Assembly (NCBI GenBank): GCA_947179485.1
Contig: OX359246.1
Coordinates: 17,670,001 to 17,734,000, forward strand
Length of the DNA stretch: 64,000 bases
Source of the DNA: Allacma fusca
Taxonomy: Eukaryota > Arthropoda > Collembola > Symphypleona > Sminthuridae
Reading direction: 5' to 3'
Each line of letters begins with the position of its first letter. Position 1 is the first letter of the stretch. The notes beneath the pieces are model-generated. The model made no database searches and was not told the origin of the DNA. It saw only the letters and a list, made by a program, of their open reading frames with translations. This document shows positions 10,784-56,010 of the stretch, piece after piece. Both the position numbers and the translations under genes were made by a program.

Positions 10784-11153
10784 TGTAACACCATAGGTTA
10801 AGTCTCCCCATGTTGTACACTTATTGGTGTCCAGCTATTGCTGAGGCACTTGCTACCCATTACTCCCGAACTCTCATCGTTACTCTCCAGCTCCCGCTTC
10901 TCGTATGCCTTACATGCCATATATAAGGCCAGCTCGCTCACAGACTATATAGTCTGTGTCGCACCGCTCCTACTGTTAACACCACATTAACTGTGCTCCT
11001 AATAAACTATTATTAAACCTTAACGTACATTTACCCGCTCATATTATTTATCCGGATATCCTCTCGTAGTTATCATCTGTCTACGGCTATGTAGGAACGG
11101 CACACAGGCTCTTATTGTAGGCACGGTTTTATCCCCCAAAGTACCATGCCACA
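10784..11153 (+). repeat. 5' LTR (370 bp)
   Basis: It begins TGTAACACCATAGG and ends CCATGCCACA. It is identical to 22351-22720 except for three substitutions. A possible polyadenylation signal, AATAAA, is at 11001-11006. Confidence 0.96.
10920..10957 (+). promoter_or_regulatory. LTR core promoter: TATA box and start-region palindrome
   Basis: TATATAA lies at 10920-10926. Fourteen bases further on is a perfect 18-bp palindrome, ACAGACTATATAGTCTGT (10940-10957). The palindrome sits about where transcription would start, so it could be an initiator element or a hairpin at the RNA 5' end. The 3' LTR has the same TATA box at 22487-22493. Confidence 0.7.
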
Positions 11154-22350: not shown

Positions 22351-22720
22351 TGTAACACCATAGGTTAAGTCTCCCCATGTTGTTCACTTATTGGTGTCCA
22401 GCTATTGCTGAGGCACTTGCTACCCATTACTCCCGAACTCTCATCGTTACTCTCCAGCTCCCGCTTCTCGTATGCCTTACATGCCATATATAAGGCCAGC
22501 TCGCTCACAGACTATATAGTCTGTGTCGCACCGCTCCTACTGTTAACACCACATTAACTGTGCTCCTAATAAACTATTATTTAACCTTAACGTACATTTA
22601 CCCGCTCATATTATTTATCCGGATATCCTCTCGTAGTTATCATTTGTCTACGGCTATGTAGGAACGGCACACAGGCTCTTATTGTAGGCACGGTTTTATC
22701 CCCCAAAGTACCATGCCACA
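22351..22720 (+). repeat. 3' LTR (370 bp)
   Basis: Matches the 5' LTR except for three substitutions: a/t in 'tgttgt(t/a)cact', a/t in 'attatt(t/a)aacc', and t/c in 'atcat(t/c)tgtc'. Confidence 0.96.
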
Positions 22721-22780: not shown

Positions 22781-24778
22781 TCATAAGCCGTAATGAAAAC
22801 TAGCAGTACGGTCATAGATTAATACAGAACTAGGAAGCAAATTTTGTACTTGATTCATTTCAGCCGCAAAGTTATGATGACCGAAAATTACAATTTTCTC
22901 AAGATGGGCAATAAAATCTCGGAATAACGGTGCGGACAAAGAACTGTTCTGTAATATTGAATTAAAAATACTCCGTGAAATTATTTATAACTCGGTATTG
23001 AAATTGGTTATTATTTCAAATTAATATATTAGATAGCGAATTTAGAACATAGTTGAACTTACCCAATGCAATTCAATTTGCTTTAATTTAGGGATTCTGG
23101 GCAGGCAGTTTCTTATCATGTCCGGACGAGCAAGAAACGATAATCCAAACTGAATAACCTCCAACTCTAACAAAAACACGAAAAAATACTTGAACCGTCT
23201 AAATGTTAAATTTAACGTAATCATGTCATATACTATTTTACAATAATTATTTACTCTCGAAGTCCAAAATCGATTCTCGCCGCGGAATCATCTCAAAGGG
23301 CAAGCCGTGATTCAAACTTAAAGTTGTAATGCCGGAAAGCGAGAAAAAATCGCATTCCCCATTCAGTTTAAGCGTCTTCAGATTTGGAAATGCTTTACGA
23401 ATGTCGGTTAAGGTTGAGGATTGAAATTCAGAAATATGAATGTCAAGGGAAGTCACGTTTGGAAACTGTCGACTCACAAATGTCAATAACAAAAACATGT
23501 CATGCTCTTCGTCATTATACGATGTCATGCTCAGTGCATTGATAACAAAATATTTAACTCCCTTATGACGGACGGCGGAATTTTCCCAGCTTGGAACAAT
23601 TGGTTCGACTAAATCTAAAATGATTTTTGCAAGTGACGGGAAATTATTTGGAGTGAAGTTGGACATAACACTATTGCCATTCTAAATGCGCATCTCTTTT
23701 AATTTTGGGAACCGAAGGTTCTTTCTAATTGAAAGGTTCGTTCGGATATCTATCAATGAGGGAGAAACGTTTCCTAAAAAGGAGTTCCATTCTTGAAAAT
23801 ACTGATCACGAACGATGTCACTTTGGAATACTGATAAAGTTCTGAGCTGGAATCCTGTACTTGCCAAATGTCTCAAGACCTTGCTGGACAACAGGTAGCA
23901 AAAGAGATGGAAATCCGTGATATGCGAGACATGGCCCTGCAGAAAGAGCCTAGGCAATGATTCATAATCTTGTATGTTAAGCTGAACATAGGTTGGCCTG
24001 CACATACGCATAATACTTTCCACAAACTGAATATGCGAGCATCGGCTGGAATAATCTCTAAATGTCAACCTTTTCAAAGACGTCAGCCGGATTGTATTGT
24101 TCACTACCGCCTCATTCCACTGGAATCCCGGATTATTCTTTGCCCAAATTTTTAAATCTACGATACTGTCCTTGTTTGCCGCCATGATTAGACTGAGTTG
24201 CGATTGATCTAGATCCATACCATTGGGGGGTAGGTCAACAAATAATCTCGTACAGGTAAACCTGGGAGTATGGACCAAATTAATGAACGTCGGTTCCGTA
24301 AAATATGTTCCTTCCACGTGGACGTTTTGAAAGGGCGATGGGAAATGTTTGAATGAACGAAGTTCTCGTTTCGGAAGGAGCGCAGCAAAATTCCTCAACT
24401 TCCATGAGATCTCTTTTAGCGACACCACTGAACAGGCCCTAAGAGATCTACTTGCCACAATGTTCCAGGATTTGCAGACCAAGCGACACGTTTTCAGTAA
24501 CCTGACATCCCTAAGTTCTTTAAGGAAAATTTCCGACACCTAGAGTTGTAAATTTCAGCCTTCATTCATTTAAATAGTCCCCACTAACAATACAATGAGT
24601 ACCCATGGTAATCAACATTGGCTTTGCACTACGTATTATTATTTTACTCCAATAAATTTACCGAAGTTGGAATTGTTTGGGCCGATTCCTGGTCTCTATT
24701 TGAGAGGTTCGTGTCCGCTGAATCTGCTTTTCTGTTGGAATTCTCATTTTTCCGAAACCGCTTCCTGACCTGCTCCAT
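22781..24778 (-). pseudogene. F-box/LRR protein, copy B (nonsense mutation)
   Basis: Four exons on the minus strand: 24662-24778, 23255-24539, 23063-23166 and 22781-22948, all with GT-AG junctions and compatible phases (0, 1, 0). The F-box spans exons 1-2 (KELRDVRLLKTCRLVCKSW). Leucine-rich stretches follow. Exon 3 reads LEVIQFG...CLPRIPKLKQIELHW and exon 4 LSAPLFRDFIAHLEKIVI. An in-frame TAG at 23682-23684 replaces a residue that is Arg or Gln in its paralogues (KLKEMRI-stop), so the protein would lose its last ~40%. The frame stays open on both sides of the stop, so the loss is recent, or the stop is an assembly error. Exon 2 is 15 nt shorter than in copies C and D. A retrotransposon begins ~60 bp past its stop codon. 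It is a gene of the same family as C and E. Confidence 0.88.
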
Positions 24779-29774: not shown

Positions 29775-32700
29775 TCATAGCAACAATACAGAATCTGGAA
29801 GCAACTTTTGTACTTCCAACATTTCAGTAGCAAAGTTATTTGATCGCGAAATTACGATTTTGTCAAGATGGCTCACAAAATCCCGGAATAATGGCGCCGT
29901 CAAACAACAGTTCTGTATTATTGATTTTAGAATACTCAGTGAAATTAGTCATAACTCTGGATTGAAAGCGGTATTCAAAATGAATATAATATTAGATAGC
30001 GAATTTATAACACATTTGCACTTACCCAATACAATTCAGTTTGCCTTAATTTAGGGATTCTGGGCAGGCAGTGCTTTATCATTTCAGGACTTACAGGGAA
30101 TTTTGATCCAAACTTAATCACCTCCAATTCTAGCATAAACACGAAAAAATACTGGTACCACCATAATGTTAAAATTAACGTAATCATGTCATAATATTTT
30201 ACAATAATTATTTACTCTTGACGTCCAAAATCGATTCTCTGCGAGGAATCATCTCAACGGGCAAGCCCTGATTCAACCCCCATGGTGTAAAGCCAGCAAA
30301 CGAAAACAGATCGCATTCCCCATCCAGTTTAAGTGTTTTGAGACTTGGAAATGCTTTACAAATGTCGGTTAAGGTTGACGATTCAAATTTAGGAACAGAA
30401 AAGTCAAGCGAAGTCACATTTGGAAACTGTCGACTCACAAAATTCAATAAAACAAGCAATTCATGCTGTGTGTCATTATACCGTCTGGAAATCCTGGTAA
30501 TATCCGGTGCGTTGATAACAAAATATTGAACACCCTTGTGATGGACGGCGCAATTTTTCCAGCATAGACGAATTGGTATGTCAAAATCGAAATTGATTTT
30601 CGTAAGAGACGGAAAATTTTCTGGACGGAATGAAGACAGAACATTTTCGTAATTCCGAATATGTATCTCTCTTAATTTTGGGAACCGAAGCTTAGTTCCA
30701 ATTGAAAGACTTGTTCTCAACTGCATTAATGAGGGAGAAACGTTTTCTAAAAATGAGTACAATTCTTGAGGATAATGATGGTAGTGAAAGCGACTTTGGA
30801 ATAATGATAATGTTCTGAGCTCAAATCTTGTATTTGCCAAATGTACCAAATTATGCTTGGTCAATTTTTCGCAAAAGAGATGCAAATCCTTCATTTGCGT
30901 GACTTGGTCCTGTAGAAGGAGGCTAGGCAATGATTCATAATCGCGGATGTTGAGATCAAGATACGTTGGCCTGCACAAACGCATAATATTTTGCAGGAAC
31001 TGAATATGCGGACATCGGTAGCAATCATCTGTAAATGTCAAGCTTTTCAAAGAAGTCAGCCGGATTGCATCGTTCACTAATGAATCATTCAACTGGAACC
31101 CCATATTATGTTTTCCAGTAATTATTAAATCCACAATACTGTCCTTGTTTGCGGCCAGGAAGAGACTGAGTTTTGACTGATCTAGATCCACATCATCCAT
31201 GTCGGGCAAGACTACACTTAGGCTCGTACAGGTAAAATTGGGAGTACAGACCAAATTAATGAACGTCGGTTCGGTGAAAGATCTTATTTCCACGCTGAAA
31301 TTTTGAAAGGGAGAGGGGAAATGTTGGAATGAATGACGTTCTTGTTTTCGAAGTAGCGCAGCAAAATCCTTCAATTTCGACGAGTTCTCTTTTAGCGACA
31401 CCACCGAACAGGTATTTAAAGATTTACTTGCAGCAATGTTCCAGGATTTGCAGACCAACCGACACGTTTTCAGTAATCTGACATCCCTAAGTTCCTCAAG
31501 GAAAATTTCCGACACCTAAAATTGTAAGATTAAGCCATCGTTCATTTAGAGTCCTAATTAGGAATGAAATGAGCAGGGTGGCTTGATTTAAATCACGTTG
31601 ATTTAAATCTTGATTTAAATCAAGATTTAAATCCCTTGATTTTTTTTATATAAATCATTGATTTAAATCAAAATTGACTCTTCAACTTTCACGATTAGGT
31701 ATAATGTAATTTGGCGTCTCAAAACGTTGTAAAATGGACATTTGCGCGTTTTTATGAATTTTGGACATGAGACCAAATTAAATTTGGTCATTTTCAGTAC
31801 AATTTGGGTATGTTGCTTTTGGATATTCTGGACAAGCTGTCACGGTGGCATAAAATTTACATACACGCGAGTTTTGAAATATTATATATTACTAGAGCTT
31901 CTCCCGGGGATGCTTGTTTTGTCCCACAGAAGATTCTCTCCGAAATCCAGGGACAAATATATGTATCTCGATCCCCTCCCGAAATATCACATGGACAATA
32001 CTCATGTCCCAAAATTATCCCATCCCGAAAATAAACCAGAATCTACAAAAACATCCCAACATCCAATCTTACTTAATGAGTACCGTTTTGAAAGGGGCAC
32101 AATTTAAATGTTAGAATTTTGTGCCGACAGATATCCACATTTTTTAAAACTGAACATTACCAAATTGTGAATAATTTTTCTGTCCCAACAGTTTCGACCA
32201 CCCCGTCAATATGTATATACCCAAGCAATAAAAATCCAAATGAGACAGTTGGTATTTGTCCTACAGAGCATTTGACTTCAAAGACAAAATGCAAAAAAAT
32301 ACTTTTGATATTTGATCTGAAGCCGGCTTTGTATTCATATTAGTTGGCTTGCTTTTGCAATTTTCTCTCGATATTTGTTACTAATTTTTCAAGTTTCATT
32401 GGTACTAACAGTGTACAATATTATTAAGACCATTAAAATCCAAAAATTTGTGCGGTGATTCAATCGTACGATAGAATTCTGAATTAAAATCAGAAAATGT
32501 TGATTTAAATCAAAAAAATCCGATTTAAATCAAATTAATCCGATTTTTTTGATTTTTTTTTAAAAAATAAAAAAAATCAGCAACCCTGGAAATGAGTACT
32601 GATCATATTAAATGAATTCCAACATTCAAATCGCACAACGTATTATTACTTTACTCTAATAGATTTACCAAAGTTGGAATTGTTTGGACCAATTCCTGGT

Positions 32701-38091: not shown

Positions 38092-39989
38092 TCACGAAAT
38101 TACGATTTTGTCAAGATGGCCCACAAAATCCCGGAATAACGGCGCCGACAAACAACAGTTCTGTAATATTGAATTTAAAAAACTCAGTGAAATTATTCAT
38201 AACACTGGATTGAAAATGGTATTCAAAATTAATATAATATTTGATAGCGAATTTATAATACATTTGCACTTACCCAATACAATTCAATTTGCCTAAATTT
38301 AGGGATTCTGGGCAGGCAGTGTCTGATAATTTCTGGACTTCCCCAAAATTTTGATCCAAACTTAATCACCTCCAAATCTAGCATAAACACGAAAAAGTAT
38401 TGGAATCACCATATTCTTGGCTTCAAAGTAATCATGAAATACTATTTTGCAATAAAAATTTACTCTTGACATCCAAAATCGATTCTCTGGGCGGAATCAT
38501 CTCAACGGGCAAGCCCTGATTCAACCCCCGTGGTGTAAAGCCAGCAAACGAAAATAGATCGCATTCCCCATCCAGTTTAAGTGTTTTGAGCCTTGCAAAT
38601 GCTTTACAAATGTCGGTTAAGGTTGACGATTGAAATTGAGGAATGGAAAAGTCTAGCCAAGTCACATTTGGAAACTGTCGACTCACAAACTTCAATAAAG
38701 CAAGGAATTCATGCTGTGTGTCATTATACCGCCCACAATACCTAGCCATTTCCGGTGCTTTGATAATACCATATTGAACACCCCTGTGACGGACGGCGCA
38801 ATTTTCCCAGCAGAGAAGAATTGGTATGTGAAAATCGAAATTGATTTTCGTAAGAGACAGAAAATTTTCTGGAGTGAGTACAGACAGAACATTTTCGTAA
38901 TTCTGAAAATGAATCTCTTTTAATTTTGGAAATCTGTGCTTATTTCCTATTTGAAGATTCGTTCGGAATTGCATCAATGAGGGAGAAACGTTTTCTAAAA
39001 ATGAGTACCACTCCTGAGGATAATGAATGTATTGATAACGAATTTGGAATAGTGGTAATGTTCGCAGCTGAAATCCTGTATTTGCCAAGTGTGTCACGAT
39101 ATTCTCAAAGAATACCCAGCAAAAGAGATGCAATTCTTTGATATTCGTGACTCGGTCCTGTTGAAGGAGGCTAGGCAATGATTCACAGTCGCGGATGTTC
39201 AGATAAAGATACGTTGGACTGCACATGCGCATAATATTTTCCAGGAACTGAATATGCGTGCATTGGTTGCAATCATCTGTAAATTTCAAGCTCTTCAGAG
39301 ACGTCAGCCGGATGGTATCATTCACTAATGCCTCATTTAACTGGAACCCCAGATTATGTTTTCCAGTAATTATTAAATCCGCTAAAGTGTCCTTGTTTGC
39401 GGCCAGGAAGAGACTGAGTTTTGACTGATCTAGATCCACACCATCCATGTCGGGCAGGACTACAGTTAAGCTCGTACAGGTAAAATGTGGAGTAAAGACC
39501 AAATTAATGAAAGTCGGTTCTGTGAAAGATCTTATTTCCACGCGGATATTTTGAAAAGGAGAGGGAAAATGTTGGAATGAACGAAGTTCCCTTTTCCGAA
39601 GTAGCGCAGCAAAATCCTTCAATTTCGACTCGTTCTCTTTAAGCGACACCATCGAACAGGTATTTAAAGATTTACTTGCAGCAATGTTCCAGGATTTGCA
39701 GACCAAGCGACATGTTTTCAGTAACTTGACATCCCTAAGATCCTCAAGGAAAATTTCCGACACCTTAAATATTAGATGGCAGTCGTCGTTCATTTAAAAC
39801 GTCTCCAATAACACGAAATGAGTACTGATCATTTTAATTGAATTCCAGCATTGACACTGCACTACGTATATTATTAATTTACTCCAATAAATTTACCAAA
39901 ATTGGAATTCTTCGGAGGTTCATGTCCGATGATTCGGCTCTTCCATTGGAATTATCATTTTTCCGAGAACGCTTCTTCACTTGCTCCAT
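38092..39989 (-). CDS. F-box/LRR protein, copy D (C-terminal truncation, 521 aa)
   Basis: Exons on the minus strand: 39897-39989, 38464-39763, 38274-38377 and 38092-38160. Exon 1 is 24 nt shorter than in its sisters, an in-frame loss next to the F-box that removes the NEDQELVQ part. The F-box itself (VSEIFLEDLRDVKLLKTCRL) and the leucine-rich part are open. In exon 4 the CGA used by copy C is TGA (38092-38094), which removes about 23 residues. The protein could still fold but may be impaired. The frame runs through the exon 1 acceptor, so a longer upstream reading (from 39793) is possible, but the splice site (AG just before GTG TCG) is conserved in all copies. Confidence 0.82.
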
Positions 39990-44169: not shown

Positions 44170-46223
44170 TCACAGCATTACTACAGAATTCGGAAGCAAC
44201 TGCTGGACTTGAACCATTTCAGCCGCAAAGTAATGTGGACCCAAAATTACAATTTTGTCAAGATGGGCCACAAAATCCCGGAATAACGGTGCCGACAAAG
44301 ATCTGTCCTGTAATATTGAATATAATTACTCTGATTTATTTATAACTCTGTATTGAAAACGGTATTTAATTTATTTCCCGGAATAACGGTACTGAAAAAG
44401 AGTTGTTCCGCAAAAGTGCATAGAAATTATTTATAAATCTGCACTGAAATAATGATTTTAAATTAAAATAATATCAGATATCAAATTCAAAACACATTTG
44501 CACTTACCCAATACAATTCAATTTGCTTTAATTTAGGGATTCTGGGCAGGCAGTGTCTTATCATGTCAGCACTGACGCAAAATTTGGATCCAAACTTAAT
44601 AACCTCCAATTCTAACATAAACACCAAAAATCATTTCAACCACCATAATTTTAACGTCAAAGTAGTTTATTTTACAATAATTATTTACTCTTGAAATCCG
44701 AAATCGATCCTCGCCGCGGAATCATCTCAACGGGCAAGCCGCGATTCAAACTCGAAGTTCCAAAGCCAGCAAACGAGAAGAAGTCGCATTGCCCATCCAG
44801 TTTAAGCGCTTTGAGACTTGGAAATGCTTTACAAATGTCGGTTAAGGTTGAGGATTGAAAGCGAGGAATGGAAAAGTCAAGGGAAGTGACGTTCGGAAAC
44901 TGTCGATTCACAAACGTCAAAAAAACAAACAATTCATGCTTTATTTCATTAGACCGTTCGAAAGGCCAGGAAATGTCAGATGCGTGAATAACACAATATT
45001 TAACTCCCTTGTGAGGGATAACGCAATTTTCCCAACTTGGAAGAATTGATTCTTCAACGTTAAAAATGATTTTCGTAAGCGACGGGAAATTTTCTGGAGT
45101 GAAAACAGACAGAAATTTTTTGTAATTCCGAATATGTATCTCTTTTAATTTTGGGAACTGAAGCTTAGTTCCAATTGGAACATCCGTTCGGAAATCCATC
45201 AATGAGGGAGAAACGTTTTCCAAAACCGAGTACAATTCCTCAAGATATTCATCATTAACAAAACCGAATAATGATAATGTTCTGAGCTGAAATCCCGTAT
45301 TTGCCAAATATGTCAAGACATTCCCGGAGAAACTCCCGCAAAAGAGATGCAAATCCTGGATATGCGTGACTTGATCATCTAGAAGGAGGCTCTGTAATGA
45401 TTCACAACCGCCGAAGTTCAGATCAAGACACGTTGGCCTGCACATCCGCATAACATTTTGCAGGAACTGAATATGCGGGCATTGCTGGCAATAATCTGTA
45501 AATTTCAAGCTTTTCAAGGACGTCAGCCGGACTGCATCGTTTACTAATGCCCCATTCAACTCGAACCCCAGATTATTGTATGCAGTAATTTCTAAATCCG
45601 CAATACTGTCCTTGTTTGCTGCCAGGAAGAGACTGAGTTGTGACTGATCTAGATCCTTGTCATCGTTGCCGTACAGGTGTACCCTTAAGCTCGTGCAAGT
45701 AATACTGGGAGTAAAGACCAAATTAATGAACGTCGGTTCGGTGAAAAATATTCCTTCCACGTGGAAATTTTGAAAGGGAGAGGGAAAATGTTGTAATGAA
45801 TGACGTTCTTGTTTCCGAAGTAGCGCAGCAAAATCCTTCAATGCTCCTGAGTTCTCTTTTAGCGATACCACTGAACAGACCCTAAGAGATTTACTTGCAA
45901 CCATGTTCCAGGATTTACAGACCAAGCGACACGTTTTCAGTAACCTGACATCCCGAAGTTCTTCAAGGAAAATTTCCGACACCTAAAATTGTAAATTTTA
46001 GCCGTCGTTCATTTAAATAGTCCCCATTAACAATACAACGAGTGCCAATCTTTTTAAACGAATCCAAACATTGACACTACGTATTACTTGACTTCAATAA
46101 AATTACCAAAGTTGGAATTGTTTGGACCAATTCCTGGTCTTCATTTAGGAGGTCCGTATCCGATGATTCTGACCTTCCGTTGGAATTCTCATTTTTCCGA
46201 AGCCGCTTCCTGACCAGCTCCAT
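44170..46223 (-). CDS. F-box/LRR protein, copy E (intact, 550 aa)
   Basis: Exons on the minus strand: 46107-46223, 44689-45982, 44508-44611 and 44170-44307. The sum is 1653 nt with GT-AG junctions in phases 0, 1, 0. The F-box spans the exon 1-2 junction (IPTL, VSEIFLEELRDVRLLKTCRL, VCKSW). Leucine-rich segments include LTSLKSLKF, FPSLTKIIF, FPNVTSLDFSIPRF and AFPSLKALKLDG. Exon 3 gives CLPRIPKLKQIELYW and exon 4 LSAPLFRDFVAHLDKIVI. Intron 3 is longer (200 nt) than in the sisters because it contains a second, non-functional copy of the start of exon 4 (about 44378-44425; its acceptor is GG instead of AG). It is one of only two undamaged copies in view. The function as an SCF adaptor is inferred from the F-box. 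Confidence 0.9.
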
Positions 46224-49871: not shown

Positions 49872-49879
49872 GCACGCGC

Positions 49880-50270
49880 CAGGGGTCGGATTTTTGTAAA
49901 TCTCCCTGGAAGATTATTTCTGAATTTCCCTGCTGACTATTATCTCCCTGCTGGTAGGTCTTCAACGATTTCAAAAATCCCTGCTGAAAAAAAGGTCAAC
50001 GATTTTCAAAATCCCTGTTGGCCAAAAAAATCCCTTACAAGACGTGAAATCCCTGCCAAATTTGGCCAATCAAGCCCAAAATCCCTGTTTGCTTAACAAA
50101 TTTCCCTGAAACACGTCAACAAATTTGAAAATCCCTGCCAAAAAAAAGGTCAACGATCTTAAAAATCCCTGTTCGTAAAAATAAATCCCTTCCCTTTGAG
50201 ATTTTCCCTGCCAGAAATATTTTTTCCCTGGGAAGATTCTTCCCGTCTTCCTACAAAAATCCGACCCCTG
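49880..50270. mobile_element. hAT MITE (391 bp)
   Basis: Perfect inverted ends CAGGGGTCGGATTTTTGTA and a perfect 8-bp duplication, gcacgcgc (49872-49879 and 50271-50278). The interior repeats 'aaaatccctg'. CAGGGG ends with an 8-bp duplication are typical of hAT elements. Confidence 0.93.
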
Positions 50271-50519
50271 GCACGCGCTATCACCCCAGAAAGACTTTCT
50301 GATTGAGCTTATCTTCTAAATCATGTAGGCATTCGCATTACACATGGCGACTAATTGTACCATGTATCCTCTCTTCTAATTTGAGATTGTGATAGAGTCC
50401 GGGTCCTTGATCGTGACCGTGATGGTAAAAACCAAATATTCACGCGCTCTAGCTGTACAGACGACCATAGTTATGTGCAACTAGCTATTGCATACAACTA
50501 TTCCGTGCTCTCAGTTAGA

Positions 50520-50740
50520 CACCCTTACTTACTCTTTACTCATAATTTTGTGTCTCATGATGTCCAGTACTTACTTTTTACTTACTCAGGGGCTTCATGG
50601 TGGCTATCTTACTTACTACTCCCTCAAAAGTTCGGGTCGGAGTGTAATACTTACTCTTTACTTACTTATTGGCAAACATAAGCTGATATTACTTACTCTT
50701 TACTTACTTTTTCCTGCATAGTACTCAAGTAATACTTACT
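50520..50740 (+). repeat. Left subterminal TTACTTACTC array
   Basis: 'cttacttactctttactcat', 'acttactttttacttactca' and close variants recur about every 40 bases. In hAT elements such short subterminal repeats are usually transposase-binding sites. Confidence 0.75.
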
Positions 50741-51275
50741 CATTTTCAAATATAATCCACATCACTGCCATCTTTGGTAGTGTAGACAACGACTCAAGTT
50801 TAACGAGTTGCATCGTCGCATATTATTTATAGGCATTGTTTGCGTATGGCCTGTGTTAACACACCTTCGCATTCCCATATTCTATCATGTGGTATCATAG
50901 AACTAACGCAAGAAATGCGCGCGCATCTAATGCAAATACATGAGAGCTTGTACAAAGGCATAATCATACGCAGTTGGTAGCATACGTAAGTACTTGAGTA
51001 GATTTGAGAAACGTTTCCTGAAAGCGATTTGCCTTGTGTTCTACGAAATAACATTCAACTTGCAGCAACTTTCCAGTATGCAGTCTTATCAGAATACATT
51101 CGTATCAGGATCCACAAGGTATGCATTTGTCAAGAAGTTGATTTATAAGTCCATTCGCAGTTTCAGTGATTTCTTCCTTTACACATTTACCACCATTCAA
51201 AATTTAAAAAAGTTTCTAAATTGAAAAGGACAAAAGTGGCAATTAAAAATAGGATCAACGCTCATCTAATTAACT

Positions 51276-51293
51276 CAACACACATGTGTGTTG
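51276..51293. repeat. Palindrome 1, CAACACACATGTGTGTTG
   Basis: Perfect 18-bp palindrome in the 5' flank of the gene-like region. Its outer flanks are not self-complementary. Confidence 0.9.
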
Positions 51294-52199
51294 CGTTCTA
51301 AGTTGGGACCACAGGACTGATCCCTTGTATTGGTGAGTTATTTGAGGTAAGAGGAATTTTAATTCATTATTTTTTGTATTATTTTCACTGCTCCTTAATT
51401 GTGCTCGTTGGCTGCAATATTGATCATGGACATTCATTATAGTGATAGTACCAATAACTGATTTTTGCGATTTTAATAATTATTTTTCCCGAAGGAGAAA
51501 TAGTTAAGATTAACTAACCATGGAATGCCAGCAGAATTTTGGCTCATAATTTGATTTTCTATACAACTTTGTGTAATTCTAATTTAATCTAATTTAGTGC
51601 TGTATTTGTTGAGTTAATGAATGTAAATCGAGTGAGTATTCACAGAAAAAACCTAAAATGCCCCTTGCGTCACACCCTCAAAACTACTACCAGGGCGATG
51701 TGGTTATATTTATTTTAAAATAATAATTACATAATGTTCTCACAGCATTGGCAATGGCGAAGGCAAAGGAATCATATTTTGCCAGGAAGTTTCGGGCAGA
51801 GAAGGTGTTTGGCACGGCACTCGTGAGAACTCAAGACAAGGATCAAAGTTTCTTGAAAGCTCGGCGACAATCCATATACGTGAAGGAGTCGATAATTCGT
51901 CCCTTACCAGAGGTAGTTCGGAAATGTGGTTTCACAAAATCTCAGCTGGAAATAAATGATGCTACCATGGAAAATAGGTGAACCCGTTTTTGTTGGGACA
52001 AGGGACCAATTTGAGACGATGATGCAAGAAACAAAGGACGAGTGTACACTTGGGTTTGACATCGACGGCCACATGCAGTACTCAATTGGAAGTAAGTGTC
52101 AAATTATATGTACACGAAATTCTTGTCACTTGGTTTATTCCTATAAATGAAACAATCGTACAAGAAGAAAAATATCATGGCTGTTTTCATGAAGAAATG

Positions 52200-52215
52200 C
52201 AACACACATGTGTTG
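52200..52215. repeat. Palindrome 2 (shortened)
   Basis: CAACACACATGTGTTG in intron 1. It lacks one TG unit, so the symmetry is imperfect. Confidence 0.8.
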
Positions 52216-52830
52216 CATTACTTCAATGCTTGAATATAGAAACTTTGTTGACCCTAATATTTAATTGTTGAGAGAAAAATTGTGACATTTTTTAAATAAT
52301 TGAATTCCGTTCAAGTGCTTTTCTACATCGTGATTTTTAATTGACTTTTTAATTTTGCAGACATAATATCGCTTATGCAAATATCCACTTTCAAAAAAGA
52401 CTTTCTCGTGGATCCGTTCACACTCCACGATGAGATTCGTAGTGAGTTGAAGCTCAAAATAGAAGATCCGGGTACCTTGCTTATTGTTCATGGAGGTGCC
52501 AACGATATATTATGGCTAAAAGGGGAATTCAAAATATTTTCCCTGTGTGTGTTTGACACTCAAATTTATGAAATTCTCCGAAGTGGCTGCTAACAAGGGG
52601 TATCCTTTAATAAATTCAAGAAAATATACTTGGCTTCATGCACCGGAGGAAAGCCACCTTACGAAAAACCAATTTGCCAGCAGGTAGATTGGAGAGTCCG
52701 ACCGTTGCCGGAGCCACTAAATATTTACAGTAGTGAGGACAGCTACTACGTACTCCTTGGATGGAATGCAATTTTAAAGCTCGTATGTAACTAATTGCAA
52801 TTTTCTCAACTCAAAATCTACTTTGCAAAC

Positions 52831-52858
52831 TAATGCAACACACATGTGTGTTGCATTA
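52831..52858. repeat. Palindrome 3 (28 bp, perfect)
   Basis: The 18-bp core at 52836-52853 is extended by TAATG on the left and CATTA on the right, so the whole is self-complementary. It lies in the intron after 52782. Confidence 0.93.
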
Positions 52859-53712
52859 ATCCTTCATGTATGATCCTGATTATACATAATTGTATTAGTA
52901 GTGAATCCTAGTTGCATAAATTACTTACTACTTATAAATAATTTCATGTGCTTTTCAGAACGATCTATCCACCATCCAGAAATCTTTACAGATGACCAAG
53001 GATTTGGTTTTAAAACCGTGGGTAGCTCCAAACTTTAAGTACTTTGATTTATGATCCCTTGATGTTTGCAATTGAAAGCTGCTTTTACCGCATTATGAAA
53101 AAATCAATGGTTTGTTATTTTGACGCGCTTTTTCAGAATGTGCGGGAACAAGTTGCACTTTTTCAAAAAGGTTAGTGCAAATAGAATTTAGTCTTTTGTC
53201 CTCAGCACTTCATTATCTAGTCTTTGTCTCCTGAAAAAGTACATACTTCATTAGAAAAACTAAGTGATTATTTAGGTTTGTGTTGATACTTTTATTGAAC
53301 AATTTACAATGTCAAAGGAGGAAAGTTTATTCCACCCATGACAAAGGTATCGGGAACCGTTTTAAGCATGGTGCCACTTCCTACTGTCATACAAGCCTAA
53401 GAGGTAGTTTTTGCAAAGGTAATAATATAATCACTATCTTGAAATTGTTAACATTTTTATTGCTATAATATTGTGGAGACTGTTTATTGAATTTCTAGAC
53501 CGAGGATGCTTTATCTGCGCTTAGAATGTCTTGTATTGAGGATTCCTCCAATGTAAGTTTCGCATGTTTTAGCTACTAAAATCTATGTCTGTAAGACCAA
53601 TATTTTACACCATTGCTTTTCATTTAGTGCATTTGTGCCGTAAAGGATCTAACCACTTCGGTCGTTAAGATCAATGATATTGAGGTAACTTTCCAATGCT
53701 TTACACATCTCT

Positions 53713-53742
53713 AAACTACAACACACATGTGTGTTGTAGTTT
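53713..53742. repeat. Palindrome 4 (30 bp, perfect)
   Basis: The 18-bp core is extended by AAACTA and TAGTTT. It lies in the short intron between the exons ending ~53682 and starting ~53791. Confidence 0.93.
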
Positions 53743-54361
53743 CACCTAATTTTAGAAATAGCGACATATTTTTTTATTCGTTGTATTCAGATCATTAAAG
53801 CCGACCTCAATGATGTTACTGGTAAGTTAAGCGATGTGTCGAATGGTATACCAACAATGGCTTTCTGATCTATTACATTTTATTTTAGATCTAACCCTTA
53901 AGCAAATGCTTATAAATACAACACTTAATTATCTTCTCAGATATTTGTGCTCTTCGTTCAAGCTTTGAACAATTCAAAGCCGAGGTGACCACCATAATTC
54001 AAAGGCCCATCTTCTGCACACTGGGATTTCTGTCGACGAAAGGGAAACAGCTGAGAGCAATCAGGGACAGACAACGACTGTGGTAAATAATTATAAGTAA
54101 TAAATTAAATAAACCAACGCAAGTAAACCTTTCGCCTTCATTAGAAATATATTTTTATTTTAGTTATTTGGTACAGTGCGACACAATGGGGAAGAGCATA
54201 ATTTGTATTTGCCTAGAAGCACTCGGGATATAATGCTGGGATGTATAAAGAAACGCGAAGCAGTTCGTCGAATTCTTTTGAGTTTCCACTCAATTCCCAA
54301 TCTCCGTCGGTTTACATTAACTGGCGAGTCGTAAGCGTCATCCTTTAATATTGCCACTAAA

Positions 54362-54383
54362 TGCAACACACATGTGTGTTGCA
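54362..54383. repeat. Palindrome 5 (22 bp)
   Basis: The core is extended by TG and CA. Four more bases on each side pair with one mismatch. It is intronic. Confidence 0.9.
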
Positions 54384-54966
54384 GTTAGTTGAAATGTTTG
54401 GCTGGGATACTATTTTCTCTTTATCATTGTTGTGTTTAAGTTTAGAACTTACAAAAAAACTCGCTTGCCTCCTTTGCGCGTAAATTCGCTGAAGGTATGT
54501 TTGACATTTTTTGCTTATTCCATTGAAATTTTTTCTTGCATAATAGAAGGCATTGTTGACTATTTAGTCATGATTGATATATTTTTCATAATTGTAATGC
54601 TTCCAGCTGCTGTTCTCAAGCTTTTTGAACCTAACAAAGCTCTAAAGACTATTGTCAACGACGATGGGACTACGAAGTATGATGACGAAATAAAATCACT
54701 TACAGCAGAGGTTCGGCCATTGATTACATCCATTGTAGAATATTATTTCAAAAGTTACAGCGCTGATGGGATCAAGATTAACTAAGTCCCGAAAAAGGAA
54801 GATGATGCCGATGAAACCACGATTCAGGAAAATGGAAATTGTCGGAAAAGGAAGTCTGGAGAAGGAAGTCTTTGGAAAAGGATGATGGTGTGGATATCGG
54901 TTCTGCTTAATTTTTATACTTCTGAAACTTTATTTATTAGAATGCAATAATTATCTTTCTTGAATT

Positions 54967-54984
54967 CAACACACATGTGTGTTG
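54967..54984. repeat. Palindrome 6 (18 bp)
   Basis: The exact core, 180 bases beyond the last stop codon. Confidence 0.9.
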
Positions 54985-55080
54985 CATTTGAATGAACGGA
55001 ATATTTGTCATTGTTTTGGTAACAATAAATTATTAGGATAAATTAGGATATTGTTAGTATTGCCACCATAAATTCAGTTT

Positions 55081-55110
55081 TTGATACAACACACATGTGT
55101 GTTGTATCAA
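55081..55110. repeat. Palindrome 7 (30 bp, perfect)
   Basis: The core is extended by TTGATA and TATCAA. It lies in the 3' flank, about 100 bases from palindrome 6. Confidence 0.93.
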
Positions 55111-55769
55111 AGAATTAAGTCCATTTAAGCAAAGACTAGTAGTGTTCTTTACAGAAAACTTCATGACATTGACTTTGATATTGTTTAAAAATAAACTTGT
55201 TTACAAGAATTAGAATCAATACGTTTTAACTATTTTAAGTATCCTATGTATATTCATTCTTCATCAATACAATTTTCACAGGAATTCCTAATGATTATGC
55301 ATACAAATTATTTTGCATGATATTGCATGGCATACTTCATCATAACAAGCGAATGTTTTTGGATACCAGAAAATGGCATGAAATTCTCCAATAGTCTATT
55401 GTATTTCTTTATATCACACCGGTTCTGGTGGCTTGCATGGAATTATAAACTAGTCAATTGTTATAACCTTTCATGTAACGGAATGCTACCACTTTAACAA
55501 CAGGCCGCATCACGCATGTTCCACGCGCAAGCGCTCCAGCCACCTTATTGACTCTTGTGGTAATTGCTACCATGTACTCCGTCCTCTGTCGCTATAGCCA
55601 ATACCATACGATTCTATACTAACTGTTGCCGTTTGGTATACAAATGACACAACATTTAGCATGAGAATTGGTCATAGCAGAGGATGCGAATGCGAAGGTG
55701 TGGGTTATCTGCCTCCATAAGCCATATATAAGTCATGGATATTGTCGGAGAACATTTTTTCTATGGTAT

Positions 55770-56010
55770 TTACTCCCGTAAAGAAGAGTTTACTTACTCA
55801 ATACTTACTTTTTGATACTTTGCAGTTCGTCTTACTTACTCATTACTTACATTACACCGGGGAATGAGTGTTCGTACTTACTCTTTACGTACTTAAACAT
55901 CAACCTTTTTAAAATTACTTACTCATTACTTACTCATACTCGCAGATGTGAGTACGAGTAAGTACAATACTCACTTACTCACTTTATGAAAAATTCGAGT
56001 AATGAGTAAA
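55770..56010 (+). repeat. Right subterminal TTACTTACTC array
   Basis: Copies of 'cttacttactcattacttac' plus the inverted 'gagtaagta' and 'gagtaatgagtaa' near the end. It is the counterpart of the left array. Confidence 0.75.

Follow-up and report, generated by a model that had tools for sequence, protein, structure and literature searches.

Recurrent palindromes as candidate cis recognition sites of exonuclease-bearing CACTA-like transposons in Allacma fusca

We identified a CACTA-like DNA transposon with a recurrent palindrome in its noncoding parts in a 64-kb stretch of the genome of the springtail Allacma fusca (contig OX359246.1, positions 17,670,001 to 17,734,000). This whole stretch is called the window, and positions are counted from its first letter (Table 1). 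The element, referred to as the window copy, aligns with copies elsewhere in three pieces (2187, 1120 and 254 bp) at 93-96% identity, which bears out the original prediction that the gene at this locus is transposon-borne. A first self-alignment of the window gave weak support for the element ends, and the true ends were taken from the other copies. At its right end the window copy has an intact GGTGTGGG; on the left it begins with AACACACC in place of the CCCACACC of the other copies, and TT adjoins the element on either side. Arrays of TACTTACTC were considered as terminal repeats and rejected, as they are located outside the element.

The exonuclease gene of the window copy was recognized by its PF01612 domain, with an E-value of 3e-9 on one exon and of 1e-14 when the exons were read together, and the best PDB match of the exons is Rrp6 (E 7.7e-17). 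In a related element family, family 2, the DNA_pol_A_exo1 domain was found at E 3.1e-24 on one exon ORF, which places the protein among the Rrp6/RNase D-like exonucleases. A CCHC-like pattern was also noted by eye in the exonuclease protein. A protein search with the exonuclease found one relative, from A. fusca, and an F-box query found nine proteins, all from A. fusca. The window copy retains orf3 and orf4 according to tblastn; no Pfam family reaches its cut-off for these two genes, and a BEN domain, guessed by eye, was unsupported by Pfam. A tblastn search for a transposase found no match in the window copy.

Table 1. Features of the window copy and its palindromes (positions in the 64-kb window).
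Feature	Position	Strand	Basis or remark
CACTA-like transposon, window copy, family 1, no transposase match	50858..55704	+	alignment to other copies
Left terminal inverted repeat	50858..50883	+	ends from copies
Right terminal inverted repeat	55679..55704	-	ends from copies
Rrp6-like 3'-5' exonuclease gene (PF01612), multi-exon, with a disrupted frame in this copy	51756..53042	+	Pfam, PDB, similarity
orf3 and orf4, conserved across families	54167..54815	+	tblastn, 62% and 44% amino acid identity to family 2
Palindrome copy 1, 5' of exonuclease gene	51276..51293		exact core
Palindrome copy 2, intron	52190..52225		16-nt core and paired arms
Palindrome copy 3, intron	52831..52858		exact core
Palindrome copy 4, flanked by small exons assigned by eye	53713..53742		exact core
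Palindrome copy 5, orf3/orf4 gap	54356..54389		exact core
Palindrome copy 6, 3' of orf4	54967..54984		exact core
Palindrome copy 7, 3' of orf4	55080..55111		exact core

The palindrome CAACACACATGTGTGTTG occurs in the window as an exact 18-mer starting at positions 51276, 52836, 53719, 54364, 54967 and 55087, and a shortened 16-nt palindrome at 52200 is the seventh copy. The site homologous to this shortened copy is a full 18-mer in another copy of the element (C). A scan of the 64-kb window for CAACACACATGTGTGTTG with 1, 2 or 3 mismatches found no further site, and occurrences of the 8-mer CACATGTG in the window are confined to the same seven places. Seven copies, one of them shortened and none elsewhere in the window, had been predicted, and this is what was found, over a span of 51276-55104. 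Chance was rejected as their origin, since shuffled versions of the window contain the exact 18-mer 0.04 times on average and at most once, compared to six times in the actual window. None of the seven overlaps a similarity-defined coding block, in agreement with the claim that no copy lies in an exon; together these blocks account for just 993 bp of the element, and the exon limits between them were therefore read by eye. The extensions of copies 3, 4 and 7 beyond the core are different yet self-complementary as originally described, with 5, 6 and 7 contiguous arm pairs, respectively. Pairing is also extensive in copies 2 and 5 (9/10 and 8/10 of the first arm positions), and copies 1 and 6 are poorly paired (3/10 and 4/10). 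Over the seven copies, 44 of 70 positions pair within their own arms; exchanging arms among the copies by permutation gives 30.3 on average, and 8 of the 5040 permutations reach 44. Random places give a mean of 19.0 pairs of 70, and 0 of 20000 reach 44.

A search of the 392,743,791-base assembly found exact CAACACACATGTGTGTTG at 46 places in ten clusters, one of which is single-copy; this and the other genome-wide repeat counts given below are lower bounds. All 46 copies found sit inside animal-CACTA-like DNA transposons, so that this first core is enriched in the noncoding parts of the elements and rare elsewhere, and the reversed control pattern gave no match in the same search. Two of the ideas originally put forward for the palindrome did not survive this distribution. 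A tiny MITE requires dispersed independent copies, and all exact copies found lie inside a few large transposons. An introner is disfavored as well: the unit is 18-40 bp long within larger gaps and is not itself an intron, and it is found at corresponding noncoding positions in 5' and 3' flanks as well as in introns. The palindrome is also not a plain (CA)n(TG)n microsatellite, the explanation against which the prediction had been set, as the 46 places are of fixed length and clustered and their flanks are not CA or TG runs (the search itself skips simple repeats). Prokaryote contigs (257 Gb) contained three matches to CAACACACATGTGTGTTG, with about 3.7 estimated by chance, and viral contigs contained one match with fully paired arms (10/10), which by eye resembles a phage terminator-like hairpin; all four were taken as chance matches. 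A search of Rfam gave two matches with E-values of 0.13 and 0.38, both far under the gathering score. In the parts of the open-access literature that were consulted, no mention of palindromes like these was noticed, either for CACTA elements or for springtails.

The element clusters carrying the first core were sorted into three families of transposon. In family 1, which measures 4.42 kb, two copies are 100% identical over 4423 bp. A third family-1 copy (G) lies inside a 530-bp satellite array whose neighboring, uninterrupted units serve as the empty site, showing that CT was duplicated. In family-1 copy C, tblastn matched neither a transposase nor orf3. Family 2 is 8.76 kb long with TA duplicated, and its Rrp6-like exonuclease gene and its transposase lie on opposite strands. 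Family 3 is 10.7 kb long with AA duplicated; compared to family 2 it is 39-44% identical in transposase blocks and 35-64% identical in exonuclease blocks. The core is common to families 2 and 3 despite transposases that are about 40% identical. It is unusual in itself that a word of 18 bp persists in the noncoding DNA of a fast-evolving parasite whose transposase has diverged to this extent. Transposase_21 was matched with an E-value of 0.0021 by one of four N-terminal pieces and DUF4218 with E-values of 0.00019 to 0.0033 by three of four C-terminal pieces, all under the curated cut-offs. Animal CACTA elements are described as having terminal inverted repeats (TIRs) starting with CCC and a 2-bp target duplication (PMC1636069, as far as the consulted part of that paper goes). 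The TIR likewise begins with CCC here, as CCCACACC in families 1, 2 and 3 and as CCCACAGC in a more distant relative, f6. A 2-bp duplication is present in all nine copies of which the two ends were found, eight from the clusters plus f6 (G CT, C AT, H AT, F TA, I TA, E AA, J CG, f6 AA, window TT); one end only was seen for copies A and D.

The palindromes follow a rule of position. In five elements (C, the window copy, F, E and f6), 42 of the 43 sites lie outside similarity-defined coding blocks, and the sole coding-located site is a variant with four mismatches in family 2, at F 8164. Each of the 16 interior gaps of less than 450 bp between coding blocks contains exactly one site, including gaps as short as 124-157 bp. 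Two longer interior gaps are without a site, one of 1.7 kb in family 3 and one of 1.8 kb in f6. The occupied gaps have counterparts from family to family (the 5' side of the exonuclease gene, the exonuclease introns, the transposase intron, orf3-orf4, and the 3' side of orf4), and such counterparts are non-independent observations.

The original prediction held that pairing is kept while arm sequence is not, and this was repeated in families 2 and 3 alone, which had no part in that prediction and in which 102 of 152 arm cells are paired compared to a permuted mean of 45.7 (0 of 20000 permutations reach the observed value). Taking families 1-3 together (33 copies), arm positions 1-8 are paired in 181/264 cells, which none of 5000 permutations reaches. 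With f6 added (42 copies), 241/336 cells are paired compared to a permuted mean of 109.5 and a maximum of 146 in 20000 permutations. These counts exclude the near copies G, H, I, A, J and D and the coding-located variant, and include both C and the window copy, which are close relatives. With increasing distance from the core, 27, 30, 30, 23, 18, 22, 18 and 13 of the 33 copies are paired. Within a family the dyad core is nearly invariant. Some variant cores are still self-complementary, among them TAACACACATGTGTGTTA and CAACATTCATGAATGTTG, and in others one or two of the pairs are mismatched. Strong hairpins in the elements are mostly members of the palindrome set: 6/6 in C, 9/9 in E, 8/9 in F if the four-mismatch variant is counted, and, at a laxer threshold, 9/12 in the 10-kb stretch of f6, where three are not.

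A genome search with the transposase gave 128 matches, 37 of which had an E-value below 1e-40; 34 of these 37 do not belong to family 2 and are 32-44% identical to it. Five relatives (f4, f5, f6, f7 and f8) were taken as 10-kb stretches. The element f6 carries the exonuclease gene and a different recurrent palindrome, CAACAAACTAGTTTGTTG, in the corresponding gaps. Its nine hairpins consist of four exact 18-mers and five variants, and 60/72 of their arm cells are paired compared to 27.1. In f4, f5, f7 and f8 a transposase is present, and their 10-kb stretches contained no exonuclease match, no such set of sites and no element ends; the exonuclease search of these stretches used tblastn and a four-sequence HMM, and f5 includes a masked N run. 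The transposases of two of these four relatives are 43% and 42% identical to that of family 2, and the corresponding value for family 3 is 44%. In f4 a 12-nt palindrome, GCCTTCGAAGGC, occurs twice, 500 bp apart, in a stretch in which the element end was not located.

The exonuclease search of the genome gave 40 matches, and six further loci (x1-x6) were viewed in 1.8 kb each. At x2, CAAAACTCTAGTGTTTTG occurs twice; its core has a T-T mismatch near the center, and genome-wide the exact core was found 19 times, in five clusters of which four coincide with exonuclease matches. The x4 core, GACAARCTAGYTTGTC, was found at 46 places, 21 of them within three exonuclease loci. Its G form is restricted to these three loci (12/12). 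At x1 a degraded palindrome only was seen, and at x3 and x6 no palindrome was found in the intron place. The palindrome of x5 is present once at each of four loci, three of which are exonuclease matches and one of which is near a transposase match; within the 1.8 kb viewed, none of x3, x5 and x6 has a recurrent palindrome. Related families thus carry different motifs, four cores in all. Confinement is weaker for the other cores than for the first: of the f6 core 4/6 exact copies lie in elements and 2/6 away from known elements, and of the A form of the x4 core 9/34 and 25/34, respectively. Palindromes accompany the exonuclease gene in 4/4 fully seen exonuclease families compared to 0/4 relatives lacking it, with a mixed picture in the six short stretches; the link between palindrome and exonuclease is an association.

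From these comparisons we propose, with moderate confidence, that the palindromes are candidate cis recognition sites of exonuclease-bearing CACTA-like transposons in A. fusca, read in trans. A protein encoded by the element would read the core and co-evolve with it, and the Rrp6-like exonuclease protein is the leading candidate for this reader. We favor a core that is read as DNA, for the reason that its four central bases are self-complementary in each of the four cores. Binding could mark or open the element's own chromatin, or help to unite its ends, in the manner of VANC proteins at VANDAL motifs and of TNPA in Spm. The paired arms might be kept by a need for a hairpin or cruciform, or by template switching in replication. 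A self-recognition code would be expected to leave the traces found here: exact first cores only inside the elements, roughly one site for each gap, a core that persists while the proteins diverge, and another core in the same gaps of f6. Several observations count against this reading: the lack of a recurrent palindrome at x3, x5 and x6 and its degraded state at x1, the palindrome of f4, the four exonuclease-lacking stretches in which element ends were not located, the copies of the f6 core and of the x4 A form away from known elements, the T-T mismatch in the x2 core, the siteless gaps of 1.7 and 1.8 kb, and the three strong hairpins of the f6 stretch outside the set. In addition, a plain dimer site needs no paired arms without sequence conservation.

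A reading at the RNA level is somewhat unlikely. The palindrome would then be a hairpin in element introns and UTRs, specific in its upper part and free in its lower stem, recognized by the Rrp6-like RNase, for example as a stop for 3'-5' intron trimming or as a self mark on pre-mRNA. The closest solved relative of the exonuclease is the RNA exonuclease Rrp6, paired arms that are free in sequence are typical of RNA stems, and the seven window copies have folding energies between -9.2 and -19.5 kcal/mol, with z between -1.9 and -5.1. The presence of one site in each of the 16 short interior gaps, even those of 124-157 bp, fits a role in pre-mRNA equally well. However, some sites lie between coding blocks and may not be transcribed, and G-U pairs are not in excess on the transcribed strand: at arm positions 1-7 of the 37 sites with an assumed strand (259 cells), 10 such pairs were counted there and 9 on the opposite strand, a test with small numbers that gave no signal in either direction. 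Furthermore, the four central bases, which would form the loop, are self-complementary in all four cores (CATG, CTAG). The dyad center and the lack of a G-U excess lean to the DNA side, and the one site per short gap and the kinship with Rrp6 to the RNA side.

It is improbable that the core alone is functional, as a dimer site, and that the arms pair as a neutral consequence of template switching, by which one arm is copied onto the other. Stems are reported to arise and to be kept up through template switching (in the consulted part of PMC8794818), and both the fall in pairing with distance from the core (27 to 13 of 33) and wobble pairs without strand preference are in line with such a mutation bias. 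Against it, the 142 window palindromes with arms of 5-8 have means of only 2.3 to 3.75 matches in the nine positions past their first mismatch. As this is about the composition expectation for most of them, homogenization is not general in the window; palindromes with longer arms in this comparison are mostly the hairpin set itself. A selfish micro-palindrome inserting into noncoding DNA, like the Volvox organelle repeats, which also share a motif while stem length varies (PMC2670323, consulted in part), was already disfavored and is very improbable, as no exact copy of the first core was found outside elements in 392.7 Mb, sites lie in corresponding gaps across families, and f6 has a different core in the same gaps.

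Returning to the proposed recognition sites, we suggest more tentatively that animal CACTA-like elements may combine an Rrp6-like exonuclease with a hairpin code that is specific to the family and placed roughly once per intron or intergenic gap, the two changing together in new families. Sequence-specific self-recognition with co-evolution of motif and protein is well worked out in plant VANDAL elements. If the proposal is true, the elements described here would represent an independent animal system, with palindromic hairpins in place of tandem motifs and a nuclease gene as partner, and would offer several natural specificity variants within one genome for testing.

In the maize Spm/En element, subterminal repeats in the terminal few hundred bases are bound by the element's own accessory protein TNPA. 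Motifs within an element recognized by its own accessory protein are only proposed for the palindromes here, which, unlike the Spm/En repeats, are spread along the whole element. The Volvox repeats share a motif, set in stems that vary in length, and occur in introns and intergenic DNA; they spread genome-wide as selfish sequences, whereas every exact copy of the first core that was found here lies in a transposon (PMC2670323, part consulted). Amoebophrya introners similarly have inverted repeats in introns (PMC7789003, part consulted). In those introners the repeats bring the 5' end of the intron into pairing with its 3' end, whereas the palindrome here is compact, lies within the intron and is also found outside introns. 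SmTRC1/TRC elements resemble the carrier elements in a TIR starting with CCC and a 2-bp duplication, and they have a Transposase_21-type transposase, for which the matches here are weak; the consulted part of the SmTRC1 description notes neither an Rrp6-like exonuclease gene nor internal palindromes (PMC1636069). The pattern of motifs is closest in kind to that of the Arabidopsis VANDAL elements, whose VANC proteins are encoded by the element, bind the motifs and remove silencing; the palindromes are set beside this system by description, without being classed as a member. As far as the consulted part of PMC5735166 goes, VANC motifs are short, repeated in the introns, intergenic and terminal noncoding regions of one family, rare elsewhere and different in related families, and VANDAL elements also carry an accessory gene besides the transposase. 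VANC motifs, however, are 8-9 bp long, dense and tandem and belong to plant elements, whereas here most noncoding segments of an animal CACTA-like element have one dyad of 16-18 bp with pairing arms.

The 530-bp satellite array around a family-1 insertion (L022, L023) yielded a clean empty site for this CACTA-like transposon. Within an element of family 2, which carries the same core, we observed a near-perfect palindrome of 67 bp (L030:7233-7299) that has no relation to the core and is possibly a MITE.

Two further Rrp6-like exonuclease loci, x2 and x4, have cores of their own. Four x2 cores are clustered at C10:49954492-49955850 of the A. fusca genome with no exonuclease match there, and this cluster is perhaps a deletion derivative. 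The A form of the x4 core, GACAAACTAGTTTGTC, is also scattered over 25 genome places away from the exonuclease loci, as if these copies were a piece of another dispersed repeat.

In f6, a relative with an exonuclease gene and a different core, one of the sites lies inside a 62-bp hairpin (L038, reverse-complement coordinates 1899-1960) with 21 of 22 outer positions paired, for which a recent template-switch event is a possible origin. The stretch containing f4, a relative with a transposase match and no exonuclease match, contains the palindrome GCCTTCGAAGGC twice (L036:1296-1419 and 1796-1807), in GAAGGC-rich surroundings with additional hairpins.

Repeated and flanking features of the window
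Feature	Position	Strand	Sequence
F-box-like gene	23247-24539	minus	
F-box-like gene	30208-31515	minus	
F-box-like gene	38432-39793	minus	
F-box-like gene	44681-45982	minus	
Perfect 20-bp palindrome	10939-10958		CACAGACTATATAGTCTGTG
Perfect 20-bp palindrome	22506-22525		CACAGACTATATAGTCTGTG
Repeat array	50523-50745		TACTTACTC-type
Repeat array	55790-56000		TACTTACTC-type
MITE-like insert	49872-50278		CAGGGGTCGGATTTTTGTA (inverted ends)

A single F-box-like gene of the window, used as query (44681-45979), gave 9 matches, all in A. fusca, with a top identity of 42%. The 20-bp palindromes bracket a Gypsy-like polyprotein region and are probably located in its LTRs. The repeat arrays flank the CACTA-like element of the window in identical orientation on either side, and the element may have inserted into a larger repeat-bearing element. 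The MITE-like insert, which shows an apparent 8-bp duplication (GCACGCGC), appears hAT-like as judged by eye.
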